Assembly (NCBI GenBank): GCA_016213785.1
Contig: JACQZQ010000001.1
Coordinates: forward strand, 1-64,000
Origin: Acidobacteriota bacterium
GTDB lineage: Bacteria > Acidobacteriota > Blastocatellia > Chloracidobacteriales > JADJPF01
Direction of reading: 5' to 3'
DNA: 64,000 nucleotides
Positions 1 to 25,892 of the stretch are shown piece by piece; the stretch's first letter is position 1; the number at the start of each line of letters is the position of its first letter. The position numbers and the translations under genes were made by a program. The notes beneath the pieces were generated by a model, which did not search any database, was not told where the DNA came from, and worked only from the letters and a program-made list of their open reading frames with translations.

Positions 1-3000
1 GCTACTAGCCATGTGTCTAGCTTGGGCAAAATCAAGGCCAGAGTCGTCATCTTTCTCGTAACCAGTAAATTGTTGTCTGATGTTTTCAGAGGAGGAAAAA
101 TATCCAGGAATAGAAGAACGAAAATCAGTAGGGTTATTAATAGATTGACCAAAAGGGTAAAAATCACGTCTGGTAATGACATCACCATTAGAGTTAGTGA
201 TAATACGAGTAGAACCTAAATGGTCAGGGGTTAAATAATAGGTTTGGCCTGCTTCGATAACTGCTAGTAATCCACTTGGAGCATAAATGTTTTCTTTGGT
301 TGGAGAAGTAACAGGAGGAATATTAAGGCCACCATCATATTCAGCTAGAAGAGAACCATCCTGATTATAGACAAAACGAGTAGTACCTAGTACAGAAGTT
401 TTTTTAACTCTCCAGCCATTAGCATCATAAAAGTAATTAGACTCAGGTTGTAAGACAGGGCCTTGAGGGTTAAAGAAAACATTTATAAGTCTGTTTTCAG
501 CATCATAAGTGTAGATTTTGCCAGATGGGTCAGCAGTAAGATTACCAGCATTATCATAGGTATAACCAGCAGAGATAATTCGGTTGGTAGTAGAAGAAAT
601 AGAAAGAGATTGAGAGTTAGTTCCATCAACTTGAGTACGATTGCCATAACGGTCATAAGTATAGGATTCAGACCAGTTAGCAATGGTAATCGGAGCTAAA
701 AAAACACTAGAAAGCTCATTGGACATAACAGAAAAATCAGAATTTATATTAGAGCCATCAGAAGAAACAGAGTTGGCACGAGAGTAGTCAATAGAAGAAA
801 AGAAAGAAGAAGGTGAGTAAGAAAAAGGAGATAAGTTGTCAATGTCGTAAATAGGAGAAGGAGAAAAACTATAGTCAGTAAAGGAAGTAGAAGTAGAAGT
901 AGAAGTAGAAGTACGAGAAATAGGAGTAATAAATTCCTTAGCTACTTTAAGACGATTAAGTTCGTCATAGGCAAAAAATTGTTCTATAGGATTATTGCCA
1001 AGTCCAGGAGTAATGCGAATATAACCAATGTTGCCATTATTTTGAGATTGGTTAGAAGAAACAAAAGGGGCAGAAGTAGAGTTAATTAAATTTTGAGCGT
1101 TATAGAGAGCATAGTTATATTCTATCTTCCATTTACTATCAATATTTGGAAAAGTACCTAAAGTAATTTGAGTAGGTTGAAGACGACTATTGTATTTGAC
1201 TTGGTGTAATAAGTTATTACCAAGTTTGTGAGATTCAATAGCACCAGCAGGCGTATAGGTGGCTTGTTGAGAAATAGCAGAATTGTTAGTTAAAACATCA
1301 GTAAGTTGACCAGCAATGTTATAAGAGTGAGTAACATTTCTACCTGATGGGTAAGTATGACTAGTAGATAAACTAGCAAGATTATACTGGGTGTTAGTTG
1401 TGTAGTACCGAGAATCAAGAAGTTGGACACTTTTAGAAACTCTTCCAACATTATCATAGACATGGAAAAGACCAGTAGGTTCTTGTCTAGTAGTGGCAGC
1501 AGTAACAACAGCAGTAAGTCTACCCATTGAAAATTGAGGAATAAAATTTGGAGGAGCAAGCCCGGAAGGTACATTGCCATCATAAAAGTAGGTAGCATCA
1601 GGGGTAGTATCTGAGTAATCCTTTATTAATAAACGGTTTAGAGTATCATAGGTATAAGTTGTAATAATACCTCTAGGATCTGTACGTTTAGTTAGATTAG
1701 AAGCAATATCATATTGATAAGAAGTAGTCCCACTACCATTAAGACCTGTTTCGGGAGTTGTAGAACTGAGCAAACGACTAAGAGAGTCATAAGCAAAAGT
1801 ACGAGTTTGTAGACCTTGATTAACCTGTTTTAGATTACCTCTAGCGTCATAGTTATAAGTGGTGGACTGACTTAAGAAACCATTAGAAGTAGGTTCAATA
1901 ACTTCTGTTAATCTACCCAAAGCATCAACTTTACTGCGACGTTGTTTATCAGCTTGGTCAGTAACAGTGATAGTTGTACCAGAATAAGTACTTGTTACAG
2001 TGCCAGTAGAAATATTACTAGCATCAAAAGTAGTTACTGTTGATATTCTGCCTAATTCGTCATAGGAAGTAGTTGTATATCCATCAGTAGTAGAACTAGC
2101 AGCAAGGCGATGAGGATTTGTAGCTTTTTTTACACGTCCAAGACCGTCATAAGTAGTTTCAACAGAAACAAAATCATTATTTACATCTTTACTGGTTTGT
2201 TGGAGAGGTTTTAAGAAACCATCTACATAACTAATAACAGATAAATCTCTACCACTATCTAAAGAAGTATCAGCTTGAATAAAAGCAGGGTAAGTGCCAG
2301 GAGCGCTATAGGTGTAACGAGTTTCACCAGAACCTAAAGGTCTTTGTACTTTTGTTAAACGATCAAGTAGGTGAGGGTCTTGATAAAAATAATTAGTAAC
2401 TTGATTATTTAAGTCTTTTGAACTAGTAACTAAACCTGTAGAGACATCATAAGTGCTTTCAGTCTTAAATTCTTGAAAAAATTCAGGGATAGACTGACGA
2501 TTAGCAATAGGAAAAGCAAAGTGTTGAGAATCATAATCAGTTCTGACAATTTGATTAGATTTTGGGCCAGTAGCTTTAACAGCATTACCAGCAATATCAT
2601 ATTGAGTAAAGATGGTAGTTCTATCAGTTTGAAAAGTTCCTAGGCCAGCGGTAACAGCAGTAAGATTACCTCTTTTGATAAAGGTAAAGCCAAAATTAGG
2701 ATTGCGAGTAGTTGGAATATTAAAATTTCTGTTCAGTAAAACATCACGAGTGTAGTTGTCATACTCATATTCAACTCTAGTTTCTTCTATATTGTTGGGG
2801 TTAAAAATAGATTCAGTTTTAACTAGTGAAACTAAGTGAGGGTTGATAACTATATTTTTATCATTTGGGTCATCAGTGTATTTAAGATATTCAGGATCAG
2901 TAACAAATGTGCGTGTTGTTTTACGGAGTAAATTATTTCCATCAAAAACACTTTCACCGATAACATTGTTAAAACCAATAGGGCCTACACCATTTATAAA

Positions 3001-20150: not shown

Positions 20151-21359
20151 TCAAGAGGTTGGAGATATTGGTGTTTTTGTTCTTTTAGCTAACCATATCT
20201 TAAACCTATGATAGGTAAGTAAAAAACCTGTACAAACTAAAAAGATAGTTCCAATTGCTGAAAGAAAAATAATTATCTGTCCACTTAAACCTAAAACTTC
20301 ACCTGTATGAACAGGACGAGCTAAGGAGTTTAATTGACGACCAAGATTAGCCTTTGTATAAGGCTCGTAGCTAATAACTTGTGCTGTTTTTTGATCAAGT
20401 GATAATTGTGAACTTTGCCAATAATTACCTTCATTAATAAAAACTCGCATAGGGGTTTTATTATTAGTTGGAAAACGTAGGTTTATAACTTTCCAATTTT
20501 GGGGTGCTTGTTTTTGTGCTTCTAAATAAAAAGCATCTAGATTATTAAGTACTTCTATTGGAACCTCTTGTTGAGTTTCAGGCTTTGGTTTATTAGCTGT
20601 ATTTTCAGGCTTTGTCTTATCACTTGCCTTATCATTAGGTTGTTGGTTAGATGGTTTTGGGCGATCAGGACGTTCAGTTTGGGTTACTGTATAAAGCAGA
20701 TTGCTAGCCCACTCAAACCCCATAACAATACCTGTTAAACTAACAATAAAAATTATGGATGAAGCCCAAAAACCAATTGAGTTATGCCAATTAAAGTTTC
20801 TTGTATGACCCTTTAGCCCTAACTTAAATATTGTTATTGCTTTTACTTGTTGACGTGTCCATCCTCTAGGTAGCCAAATAAATAGCCCTGATAGAACAAG
20901 AAAGAAAAAAGAGATACTACTAATTCCTGTGATAATTTTACCAGTGTCGCGGTTTTTACCTTCTAAAGCTAGCCAGCGATGAAGTTCTGTTGTGGTCTTA
21001 AAAAAGGCTCTTAAATTCTTTGCACCTTCGCCAAGTATTTCACCTGTGTAGGGATTAACAAATAAAACTCCATCTCTACCTAAACTAACTGTTACAGCAA
21101 GTCTAGGGTCAGATTGAATTACTAACCCTGATATTTTAGTGCTTGGTTTAGCTTCTTTTACTTTTACAATAAGCGCTTGAGGGCTTAGGCGTTCTGAGTT
21201 GGAAGCTATTACAGTTCGAGTTTTACTTTCGGCAAGATCAACGATTTGTCTTTCAAAAGCAATTAAAGAGCCTGTTATAGCCATAAACAGGATTAATAAA
21301 CCAACAATTATACCTACAGGTAAGTGACACCAAAAAATAACTTTTCTTAGTAGTTTCAT
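20151..21359 (-). CDS. PepSY-associated transmembrane protein of an iron-uptake operon
   Basis: 402 residues. The family-typical N-terminus (MKLLRKVIFWCHLPVGIIVGLLILFMAITG has the first helix) is followed by a periplasmic PepSY-type region with LHRWLALEGK, more helices, a Pro/Lys-rich hydrophilic insert (about 225-265), and a last helix near 375. This is the PiuB/PepSY_TM family. Members sit with siderophore receptors and are thought to reduce ferric siderophore or help move iron at the inner membrane. It is the third gene of the operon, 22 bases after the dioxygenase gene. Confidence 0.88.
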   Translation of the reverse strand: MKLLRKVIFWCHLPVGIIVGLLILFMAITGSLIAFERQIVDLAESKTRTVIASNSERLSPQALIVKVKEAKPSTKISGLVIQSDPRLAVTVSLGRDGVLFVNPYTGEILGEGAKNLRAFFKTTTELHRWLALEGKNRDTGKIITGISSISFFFLVLSGLFIWLPRGWTRQQVKAITIFKLGLKGHTRNFNWHNSIGFWASSIIFIVSLTGIVMGFEWASNLLYTVTQTERPDRPKPSNQQPNDKASDKTKPENTANKPKPETQQEVPIEVLNNLDAFYLEAQKQAPQNWKVINLRFPTNNKTPMRVFINEGNYWQSSQLSLDQKTAQVISYEPYTKANLGRQLNSLARPVHTGEVLGLSGQIIIFLSAIGTIFLVCTGFLLTYHRFKIWLAKRTKTPISPTS

Positions 21360-21381: not shown

Positions 21382-22062
21382 TTAAACATCTGCCCAGCTT
21401 CGCAATAGATTATGGTAAATCCCTGTTAGTTGTATGATGGTTTTATGCTCAGGTATGTCTTTATTAAGCTGTTGGATAGCTAAGTCTAGATCAAAAAGCG
21501 TTGTACGTTTTCCATCATCACGCACCATGCTTTGGATCCAGAAAAATGAAGCAATTCTTGCACCTTTTGTTACTTGAGTAACATGATGTAAACTTGATGC
21601 AGGATATAAAATCATATGACCAGCAGGTAGTTTAACTTTATGTACTCCATAATTATCTTCTATAACAAGTTCCCCGCCTTCATAATCTTCAGGGTGGTTA
21701 AGAAATAAAGTTGCTGAAAGGTCTGTACGAATGTAATGTGCTGTTTGAGGAATTTGACGAATAGCATTATCAATATGAGTTCCAAAAGATTGACCGCCTT
21801 GGTAACGGTTAAATAAAGGAGGGAAAACCTTTGCAGGTAGTGCAGCAGAAATAAAAAGAGCATTTTTGCCTAAAGCTGAAAGAATCATTTCACCTAGCTT
21901 TTTTGCTACCTTATGGTTTTCAGGAATTTGTTGGTTATTTTTCGCACGAGCAGATTGATGGCCTGCTGTAACTCGGCCATCAACCCAATCGGCTTTAGCT
22001 AGGAACTCTTTTGCTTGTGCTAACTCATCAGAATTTAGTACTTCTGGTATAGTTAATAACAC
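21382..22062 (-). CDS. piuC: PKHD-type Fe(II)/2-oxoglutarate dioxygenase (PiuC/YbiX family)
   Basis: 226 residues, the standard family length. Iron ligands H96, D98 and H159 and the 2-oxoglutarate-binding R169 are present ([23 protein letters not shown]). These cytoplasmic hydroxylases are encoded beside catecholate or xenosiderophore TonB receptors in many Proteobacteria; the substrate is not firmly known. Here it lies 25 bases after the receptor gene and 22 before the PepSY gene, which supports the family assignment and iron-regulated co-expression. Confidence 0.94.
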
Positions 22063-22087: not shown

Positions 22088-24535
22088 TTACTTACGTAGC
22101 TTAAAGTTAAGCCCAACTTTTACCGAACGACCTGCGCCAGGAACTAAATGTCCACCGCTAACTTGGTCAATGTAAAATTTATTACTTAGATTATAAGCAT
22201 TTATTTGAAGTTCAATTGATTCACTAATAGCTCGTTTTACAAACATATCAGCTACAGTATAGCTCTTTACTTGTCTTACAAGTCCAGTAATAGGATCTAG
22301 TGGGGTAGTCGAGCTTGCATTACGGCTGCCAACATATCTTAAAGTAAAGCCTGCATCTAATCGCCAAGGTAAATTATAGGTAGTGGTTAAGCTACCAGTA
22401 TGTTTAGGGACGTTAGTAAGACGGCTACCAATAGCCTTTGGAAAGAATTTTGATGCAACTAGTTCACTATCTAAAAAAGCATAACTAGAATTAATTTGTA
22501 AGCGATCCATTATTCTACCCGTAGTTTCAAACTCAAAACCATCTACTTTTTGTTCACCAGAAAGTATAACTAAAAGTGAGTTCATAGGATCGGTTTCACG
22601 AGCATTAGTTTTTTCTACACGAAATGCTGCTGCACGAATAGAAAAACGTTCTGATAATAAATCCCACTTGCTACCGACTTCAAACGTCCTATTTTCTTCA
22701 GGAGCAACTTTTACAGTTGCGGCACTAAGTGCAAAAGCTTCAGCTGAAGGATTAAATGAAGTGCTGTAGCTAAAATAAATACTTCCTGTTTTCATAGGCT
22801 TGTAAACAATTGCACCACGATAACTTGTCATATTATCAAGACGATTAAATTTACCTTTTGCAGTACCTATAAATTGCTCAAAATCAACATCAAATCTGTC
22901 ATAACGAACCCCGCCTACAAACTCTAGCTTATCGGCAAGATTTATAGTTGTTAAGAAATAAGTTGCAAAGGTATTGCCTATAGCACGAATTCTAGAAGTA
23001 AGTGCAGAAGTACCAGAAAAGGGCGTTTCAGTATTTGGATTTAGTAGATTTGCTAGCGGAACCCCTGTAATAGTAAAACGAGTTGGCTTTGAAGTTTCAC
23101 GAGAACCTTCTACACCACCTACTACTGTATATTTTATAAAACCTGTTTGAAATTTCGCTGTTACATCAAATTGGTTTTGTAGAAAAGTCTCATCAGTATC
23201 AAGCGAAACTTGATTACGACTTACTTGTATTTGGTTAAGAGGAGTATTAAGCGTAGGAGTTCCGCTAATACGTGGGGCTGTAATTAAAGCCTCACGAGAA
23301 TAATTTGTATAACGTGCTTGATTACGTATACCAAATGAATCATTAAACTGATGCTCAAACTTAATTGTCCCTATATCGACATTAGTTTTAAGGAAATTAC
23401 TATTCTTAAAACCATAGTAGTTATTACGATCTACTGGAGCAGGGCCATTAAACAAATAGGGAAGCCCATAGTCAGGAATATCATCAGATGATTGATGAAA
23501 ATAACTAATAGTTAAATTAGTTGGTTGACCAATACCTATTGCTAAAGATGGAGCAAATCCATAACGGCGAGTCTCAGCAATATCACGCTCGGCAACTTGA
23601 GCATAATGGCCTAAGATATTTAATCTAAATGCAGAATTTTTCCCTAGTTTTGATATAGGCTCATTAATATCTATTGTTGCTCTTTTAGTCTCATCACTTC
23701 CAAACTCAAGCGTCCCATTAATAAAAGATCTAAGCTGTGGAGCTTTATAAGTTTGATTTACTGCACCACCTGTTGAACCACGCCCAAGAGTTACAGATGA
23801 AGGGCCTTTTAAGACTTCTACTTGCTCAACATTAAAAGGATCCCTATAGTAGTTGCCAAAATCACGCATACCATCAATAAAAAGATCATTACGAGCGCCA
23901 AACCCACGAATTGTTAAATTATCTCCTTGATTTCCACCTTCACCAGCAGCAATACTAACACCTGCAACATTACGCAAGGCATCACGAAGTGTTGTAACTC
24001 CTTGATCTTCAAGCGTTTCTTTTGAGACGATGCTAATTGATTGAGGTGTATCACGTAAAGGTTCAGTAAATTTAGGCGAGTTTAATATCTTAATACTATC
24101 TGTAACTTCAATTACTTCTGATGTTGCTTCAATTGTTATCGTTATTTCATTAGCAGAAGTAAAACGATAGGTAACGTTTGTGCCTACTAGAATTTGCTTA
24201 AGAGCTTCATCTAGCGAGTAGCTACCTGTAACCCCAGAAGATGTAAGACTGCGTAGTGCCTCATTTATTCCTTGAATTTTTATTCCTGTAGTGTCTTGAA
24301 AAGCGGCGAATACCTTATCTAGAGAGCCAGCAGGGATATTAAATTGACGAGCAGTCTCTTGCTGTTGAAGAAAACTATTGACCGTAAAACTAGGAAACGC
24401 TTTTCCATAAACAGGAAGTACAAACCCACTATCAAACGCAGTACAAGCAAGTAATGCTCCCATTACAACTAATTTTTTAGAACTATTTTCAGTAGAATTA
24501 CATTTACTTTTCTTAGTGCATTTTTTTACTTTCAT
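22088..24535 (-). CDS. TonB-dependent siderophore receptor with N-terminal STN domain
   Basis: 815 residues. A basic N-terminus and hydrophobic stretch (about 20-45) serve as signal. An STN domain (about 58-112, IPAGSLDKVFAAFQDTTGI) follows, then a plug (about 155-265, PQSISIVSKETLEDQGVTTLRDALRNVAGV and VEVLKGPSSVTLGRGSTGGAVN hold the signatures), then the barrel with the GSKWDLLSERFSIRAAAF and YNLSNKFYIDQ strands. It resembles PiuA/Fiu/FhuA-type receptors importing ferric siderophores. An STN domain usually serves FecR-sigma factor signalling, but no such pair is in the window. It is the first gene of the operon and is driven from a Fur-like promoter about 420 bases upstream. Confidence 0.93.
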   Translation of the reverse strand: MKVKKCTKKSKCNSTENSSKKLVVMGALLACTAFDSGFVLPVYGKAFPSFTVNSFLQQQETARQFNIPAGSLDKVFAAFQDTTGIKIQGINEALRSLTSSGVTGSYSLDEALKQILVGTNVTYRFTSANEITITIEATSEVIEVTDSIKILNSPKFTEPLRDTPQSISIVSKETLEDQGVTTLRDALRNVAGVSIAAGEGGNQGDNLTIRGFGARNDLFIDGMRDFGNYYRDPFNVEQVEVLKGPSSVTLGRGSTGGAVNQTYKAPQLRSFINGTLEFGSDETKRATIDINEPISKLGKNSAFRLNILGHYAQVAERDIAETRRYGFAPSLAIGIGQPTNLTISYFHQSSDDIPDYGLPYLFNGPAPVDRNNYYGFKNSNFLKTNVDIGTIKFEHQFNDSFGIRNQARYTNYSREALITAPRISGTPTLNTPLNQIQVSRNQVSLDTDETFLQNQFDVTAKFQTGFIKYTVVGGVEGSRETSKPTRFTITGVPLANLLNPNTETPFSGTSALTSRIRAIGNTFATYFLTTINLADKLEFVGGVRYDRFDVDFEQFIGTAKGKFNRLDNMTSYRGAIVYKPMKTGSIYFSYSTSFNPSAEAFALSAATVKVAPEENRTFEVGSKWDLLSERFSIRAAAFRVEKTNARETDPMNSLLVILSGEQKVDGFEFETTGRIMDRLQINSSYAFLDSELVASKFFPKAIGSRLTNVPKHTGSLTTTYNLPWRLDAGFTLRYVGSRNASSTTPLDPITGLVRQVKSYTVADMFVKRAISESIELQINAYNLSNKFYIDQVSGGHLVPGAGRSVKVGLNFKLRK

Positions 24536-24878
24536 TACTCTTATTACTCTCCTTAAAAGGCTTCGGTTATTTAGTTAAATAATAATAAAATTTAGGCAAA
24601 CAGATATTTAGCCACTATTTAAGTAGCAATTTTTTGCTAGTTTAAGAGTTATTTTTAGAGCTAGTAGCCTTGTAGCCTTTTAGAGAAGGTAAGTTTTATC
24701 TCTTAATCAAATTATTTAAGAAATATATATAAACTAATAGTTTCTCTAAAGTCTTACACCACAGTCTATTAAAATATTAAAAATAGCTTCTAGTGCTTAT
24801 CAAAAAATAAGTTGTGTGCTAGGATTTGCCCGCACAATATACGGGTTAGCGTCAAATATAACCAAACTAGTTGTGCTA

Positions 24879-24910
24879 GCCACCTTTAACGTTGCCGCGC
24901 TAAAGGTGGC
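24879..24910. repeat. Perfect 10-bp hairpin in the leader
   Basis: GCCACCTTTA (24879-24888) and TAAAGGTGGC (24901-24910) pair fully around a 12-base GC-rich loop. There is no T-run, so a terminator is less likely than a regulatory or processed RNA element. Confidence 0.8.
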
Positions 24911-24940
24911 CGTTCTTGACTTGTTAATTAGTGCTGAAAT

Positions 24941-24955
24941 TGAAAATCGTTTTCA
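24941..24955. promoter_or_regulatory. Fur-like box
   Basis: TGAAAATCGTTTTCA, a palindrome of the 7-1-7 Fur type (compare TGATAATnATTATCA). It covers about +4 to +18 of the predicted minus-strand transcript, a standard repression position. Confidence 0.65.
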
Positions 24956-24965
24956 GAGCAAAAAA

Positions 24966-24994
24966 ACTATACATAAAAGATTTATTTGTGTCAA
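24966..24994 (-). promoter_or_regulatory. Sigma-70 promoter of the siderophore receptor operon
   Basis: On the minus strand TTGACA (24989-24994), a 17-base spacer and TATAGT (24966-24971). The start is predicted near 24959, just before the Fur-like box. Confidence 0.75.
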
Positions 24995-25055: not shown

Positions 25056-25892
25056 TTAAATAGGTTCTAGGGTTAGGACTTCATTTAAGTAATCAACTTT
25101 AACAATAAAATTTTTTAGATAGTTAAATCCAAGTATTCCATGTAGTTTTATTCCTGCTACTTTGCTTAACATAGCAAAAAAATCTGCTACTACAACTGTT
25201 AGGTTTTCTACTTCAGTACTACCTACAGATAGAGAAGAAATCTCTGTAATAGGCATACTTAATTGATAGCCTCCGCCAGTTGAGACCGTTTCCATAGCTT
25301 TATTCTCTAGTGATAAAATTTCTGCAATATCAATAGAAATAACAGTACCAGAGGCACCTGTATCAAGAGCAAATTGGTAGGGGCCTGTATTATTAACCAT
25401 TGTAGACACAACAATTAAAGGTCTTTGGGGATGGGCTAGCCTAAATTTTATTTGATTAGGAGTTAAATTTAGTGTGCTTAATGCACTTGGTTCGATAGGT
25501 GAAGTTAAATGTAGGGTTTGTTTTTGATAATTAAGTATAAGGTCGAAATTTTGTAGAAAATTATAACCAATTCCACCCATAACTTCGGCATTAATTGCTT
25601 GGCAAACATCTGTTAAATCAACTATTCCTACCAGTAAATTATTTATTTTTGCTTGTCCAACTGAAAAATAGTTTACTTCTCCAAGCCCTAAAGCTATTTT
25701 GCCTCCTGCTACTAAGGCTTCTCGCTCATCCTGGCAAGCTATCCCTAATTTTTCTGCAAGTGTTGGTGTAATAAGCGAAGTGCTTGCTCCTGTATCTAAA
25801 ATAAAATCAAATGGGCCTTGTTCATTAATATAGGTTGGCACTAATACTAAAGGTTGAGGATCTCCTGCTAACTTAAAGCTTGTTGTGTCCAA
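25056..25892 (-). CDS. Tandem retropepsin-like aspartic protease
   Basis: 278 residues made of two similar halves. Each has a catalytic DTGA motif: D33-T-G-A (FILDTGASTSLI) and D177-T-G-A (FALDTGASGTVI). Each also has a matching later block, GGIGYNFLQNF (about 106-116) and HGILGFNYLKNF (about 251-262). Bacterial retropepsin-like domains are usually single and must dimerise; here one chain could supply both aspartates, like pepsin. No signal peptide or membrane segment is visible with this ATG, so a cytoplasmic location is likely unless the start is wrong. It ends upstream of the siderophore promoter and lies 34 bases downstream of the glycosyltransferase gene on the same strand. Confidence 0.88.
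   Translation of the reverse strand: MDTTSFKLAGDPQPLVLVPTYINEQGPFDFILDTGASTSLITPTLAEKLGIACQDEREALVAGGKIALGLGEVNYFSVGQAKINNLLVGIVDLTDVCQAINAEVMGGIGYNFLQNFDLILNYQKQTLHLTSPIEPSALSTLNLTPNQIKFRLAHPQRPLIVVSTMVNNTGPYQFALDTGASGTVISIDIAEILSLENKAMETVSTGGGYQLSMPITEISSLSVGSTEVENLTVVVADFFAMLSKVAGIKLHGILGFNYLKNFIVKVDYLNEVLTLEPI

Follow-up and report, generated by a model that had tools for sequence, protein, structure and literature searches.

A conserved two-hairpin RNA element, putatively cis-regulatory, in the leaders of TonB-dependent receptor genes of Blastocatellia

The leader of a TonB-dependent siderophore receptor gene in an Acidobacteriota bacterium contains a conserved structured RNA element, comprising a hairpin (P1), a linker and a second hairpin (P2). 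The element recurs ahead of TonB-dependent receptor genes of several subtypes, mostly downstream of a Fur-like box, in related genomes of the class Blastocatellia. Judged from comparative sequence analysis, its most likely role is cis-regulatory, and we consider it probable that the element is a module of TonB-receptor leaders in this class that controls receptor expression in cis after transcription. Here, we describe the locus in a stretch of 64,000 nucleotides (the window; contig JACQZQ010000001.1), the conservation and distribution of the element, and the evidence that bears on its possible functions.

The element precedes three genes encoding a Fiu-like TonB-dependent receptor, a YbiX/PiuC-like hydroxylase and a PepSY_TM protein (Table 1). 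A preliminary description of this DNA had called them a siderophore operon; they do form a siderophore receptor operon, but one that serves uptake rather than synthesis. The best-scoring named family for the receptor is Fiu, at a score below the cut-off of that family, and the window genome contains 32 Plug-domain matches in all. The gene just upstream of the promoter (25056-25892, minus strand) encodes two retropepsin-like aspartyl protease domains (PF13650 and PF13975).

Table 1. Features of the receptor operon and its leader in the window
Feature	Coordinates	Strand	Basis
Promoter: TTGACA (24994-24989), 17-nt spacer, TATAGT (24971-24966)	24966..24994	minus	sequence; 11/12 consensus
Fur-like palindrome TGAAAACGATTTTCA (coding strand)	24955-24941	minus	overlaps likely transcription start
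Conserved structured RNA element (P1, linker, P2), 98 nt	24813..24910	minus	94% identity in G001; covariance-model copies before TonB receptors
Hairpin P1: 13-bp stem (24910-24898 / 24891-24879), loop CGGCAA (24897-24892)	24879..24910	minus	folding, covariation
Conserved linker segment GCACAACU, consensus GCACRACY	24869..24876	minus	alignment A7 (19 sequences)
Hairpin P2: UUGUGC (24837-24832) and GCACAC (24819-24814), loop with AAAUCCUA	24814..24837	minus	three double-changed pairs; folding
Leader remainder, poorly conserved past its first 18 nt	24536..24812	minus	comparison with G001
TonB-dependent siderophore receptor, Fiu-like (STN, Plug, barrel)	22088..24535	minus	Pfam; TIGR01783 above cut-off
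PKHD-type Fe(II) dioxygenase, YbiX/PiuC-like	21382..22062	minus	profile matches
PepSY-associated TM protein (PepSY_TM)	20151..21359	minus	Pfam

The promoter-like sequence TTGACA-17-TATAGT, present where the preliminary description had placed it, is the top site of its kind in the region; as a class, promoter-like sites are no more frequent here than in shuffled sequence. With the putative start placed 7 nt past the -10 box, the palindrome lies at about +4, as had been claimed, although on the strand opposite to the one then given, and the receptor ATG at 24535 follows about 424 nt from the start (about 420 in the earlier account). A scan of 29 related loci for a TTGAAAANNNTTTTCAA-like box no more than 250 nt upstream of P1, controlled by Markov shuffles, found one in 23 (p < 0.05), usually 37-49 nt before P1, and a profile search of the window genome found two FUR-family genes above the PF01475 cut-off. 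The palindrome over the likely start, the boxes at related loci and the FUR-family genes support the assignment of this site as a putative Fur-type promoter.

Within the leader, the earlier account had noted a perfect 10-bp hairpin in a segment richer in G and C than its flanks. The stem, formed by GCCACCTTTA and TAAAGGTGGC, is longer than described, extending to 13 bp with one G-U pair, and it lies in an island of about 100 nt with 42-43% GC against 22-30% on both sides. Single-sequence folds that include P1 gave z-scores of -2.6 to -3.1. The genome-wide search for the hairpin that had been proposed found the element as a single copy in the window genome, and searches for tRNA and tmRNA returned nothing.

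Comparison with the closest relative, a Blastocatellia MAG of the same genus (JAHFUF010000041.1, locus L048, genome G001), delimits the conserved segment. The gene upstream of the promoter is a different, divergent one in G001, upstream DNA is 49% identical, and the alignment starts at the -35 box; despite the different upstream gene the promoter is 86% identical. Identity is 77% over the start site and Fur box, 55% in the spacer that follows, 94% without gaps over the element, 89% over the next 18 nt, and 61% with 47 gap columns over the remaining 259 nt of leader (24794-24536). Since the receptor coding sequences are 81% identical, the element is more constrained than its own receptor gene. 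A leader without conservation or structure, the outcome named beforehand as speaking against the proposal, was therefore not what we found: the element stands at 94% against 61% for the rest of the leader, and P1 covaries (see below). The conservation and structure of the island are more than chance. Of the 420-base structured leader that had been proposed, structure and conservation hold, but only for about 98 nt.

Copies of the element were sought in progressively wider searches. Searched with blastn, the phylum yielded a single short match, in a genome of another family (G336); there an identical loop, followed after about 60 nt by CAAATTCTAGCACA, lies ahead of a different TonB receptor. 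G437 was added by searching 162 Blastocatellia genomes for the pattern. A covariance model built on these two sequences with the window and G001 (R1, four sequences) and searched over the 162 genomes yielded 11 further loci with a per-genome E <= 0.0025, in G014, G433, G492 (two), G448, G493, G034, G037, G008, G007 and G004. All R1 loci scanned stand before Plug-domain receptors (G007, a near copy of G008, was left out of the separate Plug scan). This step was non-circular because the search used the RNA alone, and the rough chance of receptor adjacency, computed for the window genome as 32 genes x 700 nt / (2 x 6.4 Mb), is about 0.002 per match. Model R2 (13 sequences) added G047, G052 (two), G435, a second copy in G004, G054 and G436, with a Plug domain in six. 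Model R3 (19 sequences) raised the scores of copies in genomes of the same order (G006, G008, G010, G011 and G012) and added G420, bringing the total for the refined model to about 27 copies in five Blastocatellia families, plus one in another class. Any R3 match at E <= 0.1 is confined to 37 of the 162 class genomes, about a quarter, so the element is dispensable in many relatives.

The one convincing copy outside the class (G578, E = 3.6e-11) has a Fur box and a TonB-receptor-like frame and comes from a MAG with 9% contamination; it could reflect transfer or a foreign contig. In this copy (L179, G578:C230:6986-7092) the 3' strand of P2 is tandemly duplicated, ATCTTAGCACAATCTTAGCACGCC. The other out-of-class matches that were read were ordinary terminator hairpins or lacked the downstream receptor-type gene. 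R1 matches scoring under about 25 bits (L085-L097) were coding sequence or ordinary terminators, as were most R3 matches near E = 0.001 outside the main set; an exact 21-nt match in G252, which lies on the opposite strand and ahead of an unrelated gene, was judged to be chance. Four loci in same-order genomes (L108, L111, L112 and L113) have P1 followed by a hairpin unlike P2, GGAUGGCGCGU..AUGCGCCGUCC and a CACUCUACCCG loop, which is possibly a variant of the element. At L127 (G436:C545) the element and a Fur box precede what was judged by eye to be a truncated receptor start of about 138 amino acids, followed by a PepSY_TM-like gene; this may be a decayed receptor or an assembly error.

Compensatory changes across related leaders, which had been proposed as a check, maintain P1 strongly and P2 moderately. 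In an alignment of 19 sequences (A7), P1 pairs in 88% of cells and shows double-sided changes at 12 of its 13 pairs, and the two helices together score 0.437 for covariation, where shuffles give 0.195 +/- 0.018 and slid controls no more than 0.154. P2 (RGYGUGC and GCACRCY, with AUCCUA in the loop) is more conserved in sequence than P1; it has three pairs with double changes, a number not above that in shuffles, and scores 0.299 against 0.185 +/- 0.030 in shuffles and 0.178 in the best slid control. Some of the aligned sequences came from searches with models in which P1 and P2 were already assumed; the resulting bias toward these helices matters little for P1, given the size of its signal, but is a genuine concern for P2. 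In folding, P1 is near certain, and the mean best-pair probability of P2 is 0.81; in the window's own sequence P2 reaches only 0.06 as a result of competing pairing.

The same observations bear on whether the element is a regulatory RNA at all. P1 is an inverted repeat, and very weak model matches elsewhere are ordinary AAAGCC..GGCTTT terminators, so that the element might be suspected of being a DNA inverted repeat, a relic terminator, a repeat element or a short coding frame. Such non-regulatory origins are nevertheless very improbable: the sequence of P1 varies while its pairing is kept, no U-run follows it, and the element occurs once in the window genome with no phage or plasmid match. 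A mobile or repeat element was rejected on that single copy and the lack of any match in phages, plasmids or viral contigs. A conserved peptide or upstream reading frame was likewise rejected, as element lengths differ by insertions and deletions that are not multiples of three; the small frames of the window and G001 also differ by amino-acid-changing substitutions. Locus L106 of G034 has a small frame rich in Cys, MSKKSKCCNSYKRKGKACKNCPLIK, after the Fur-like box and before P1 (about 292-369, plus strand), which is not seen as such in other members.

TonB-dependent receptors lie downstream of nearly all confident copies, and they are of several subtypes: STN-type Fiu-like receptors in the window and G448, CarboxypepD_reg siderophore-type receptors in G336 and G004, and receptors in G014, G034 and G008 that are nearest to haem or B12 receptor models, below cut-offs. 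The exceptions, G420 and G412, have other outer-membrane-type proteins. In G420 (L157, C41:22117-22230) an element-like sequence follows a Fur-like box and precedes an unnamed secreted or porin-like frame; in G412 (L114, C31), which is outside the class, a possible copy precedes a gene for a DUF6662 protein. In three genomes (G052a, G054 and G012) the element is found 13-60 nt past an upstream frame on the same strand, without a convincing Fur box, and these copies within operons indicate that the element goes with the receptor gene rather than with the promoter alone.

Distances from the element to the start codon range from about 26 to 280 nt, with G047 and G037 at about 500-650 nt or more; a long leader is not what the relatives have in common. 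This variable spacing argues against a single fixed ribosome-site mechanism. It also bears on the idea that the promoter-proximal 150 nt accumulate as a Fur-controlled small RNA acting elsewhere, which the layout in the window would suit, the element lying close to the promoter, with about 280 nt of poorly conserved leader after it. We regard such a leader-derived sRNA as improbable, because in many relatives the start codon is merely 26-90 nt from the element, some copies sit within operons, and the search of the leader region found no intrinsic terminator-like site after the element.

A further alternative is that the module is a riboswitch, with iron, a siderophore-related compound, haem or another metabolite as a direct ligand that switches receptor expression. 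The loops and linker are conserved as well as the helices, the module is associated with uptake genes, and the 5' strand of P2 has a possible alternative partner in the linker GCACRACY; this alternative helix, if formed, would make a switch by excluding P2. Set against this, the module is a pair of simple hairpins and lacks a complex fold, no expression platform was found, the downstream receptors seem to differ in substrate, and the alternative helix, which had some support on 13 sequences, weakened on 19 and is almost never favored in folding (0.017). A new riboswitch class sensing iron supply or a siderophore-related molecule, and providing a second, RNA-level control of Fur-controlled TonB receptors, is unlikely, though less so than the sRNA reading.

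We return to a module that acts in cis after transcription, against which count the absence of a common expression platform or terminator and the varying distance to the start codon. In this proposal, Fur with iron would block transcription at the start site, and the leader would be transcribed when iron is short; the two hairpins would then set translation of the receptor or the lifetime of its mRNA, presumably through a bound protein, sRNA or ligand. Given so simple a two-hairpin structure, in which no expression platform is recognizable, a bound protein or sRNA, or stabilization of the mRNA, is more likely than a metabolite switch.

Searches against Rfam release 15, at gathering and permissive thresholds, gave chance matches only, and no description of the motif was found in open-access papers; the motif appears to be an undescribed family of structured leader RNAs, of a known kind and putatively cis-regulatory. 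The cobalamin riboswitch is a structured RNA in the leaders of btuB, itself a gene for a TonB-dependent receptor. The present element resembles it in position, but is far smaller, has only two hairpins, matches no Rfam riboswitch and accompanies mostly iron- or siderophore-type genes with Fur boxes. The leader of the haem receptor gene chuA is reported to involve an RNA thermometer and the sRNA CyaR (PMC9002310), and so resembles the present case in placing a second, RNA-level control on an iron-limited receptor gene; the structure and organism differ, and the element has no FourU match. RusT, an iron-starvation sRNA of Caulobacter, similarly controls outer-membrane transporters at the RNA level, but it acts in trans on their mRNAs (PMC11005374), whereas the element belongs to the leader of the receptor mRNA itself. 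Acido-1 and Acido-Lenti-1, from a survey of 104 motifs, are also structured Acidobacteria RNAs known by comparison only; they are listed as not cis-regulatory, the main text of the survey does not mention TonB (PMC2864571), and cmscan matched the element to neither.

Through the module, iron uptake in these bacteria is probably subject to a second level of control. An RNA structure common to several iron-receptor subtypes, and found with Fur boxes, would represent a testable RNA-level control of nutrient uptake in the Acidobacteriota, a phylum that is abundant in soil and genetically little studied, and the roughly 27 natural variants would ease mutational and ligand tests.
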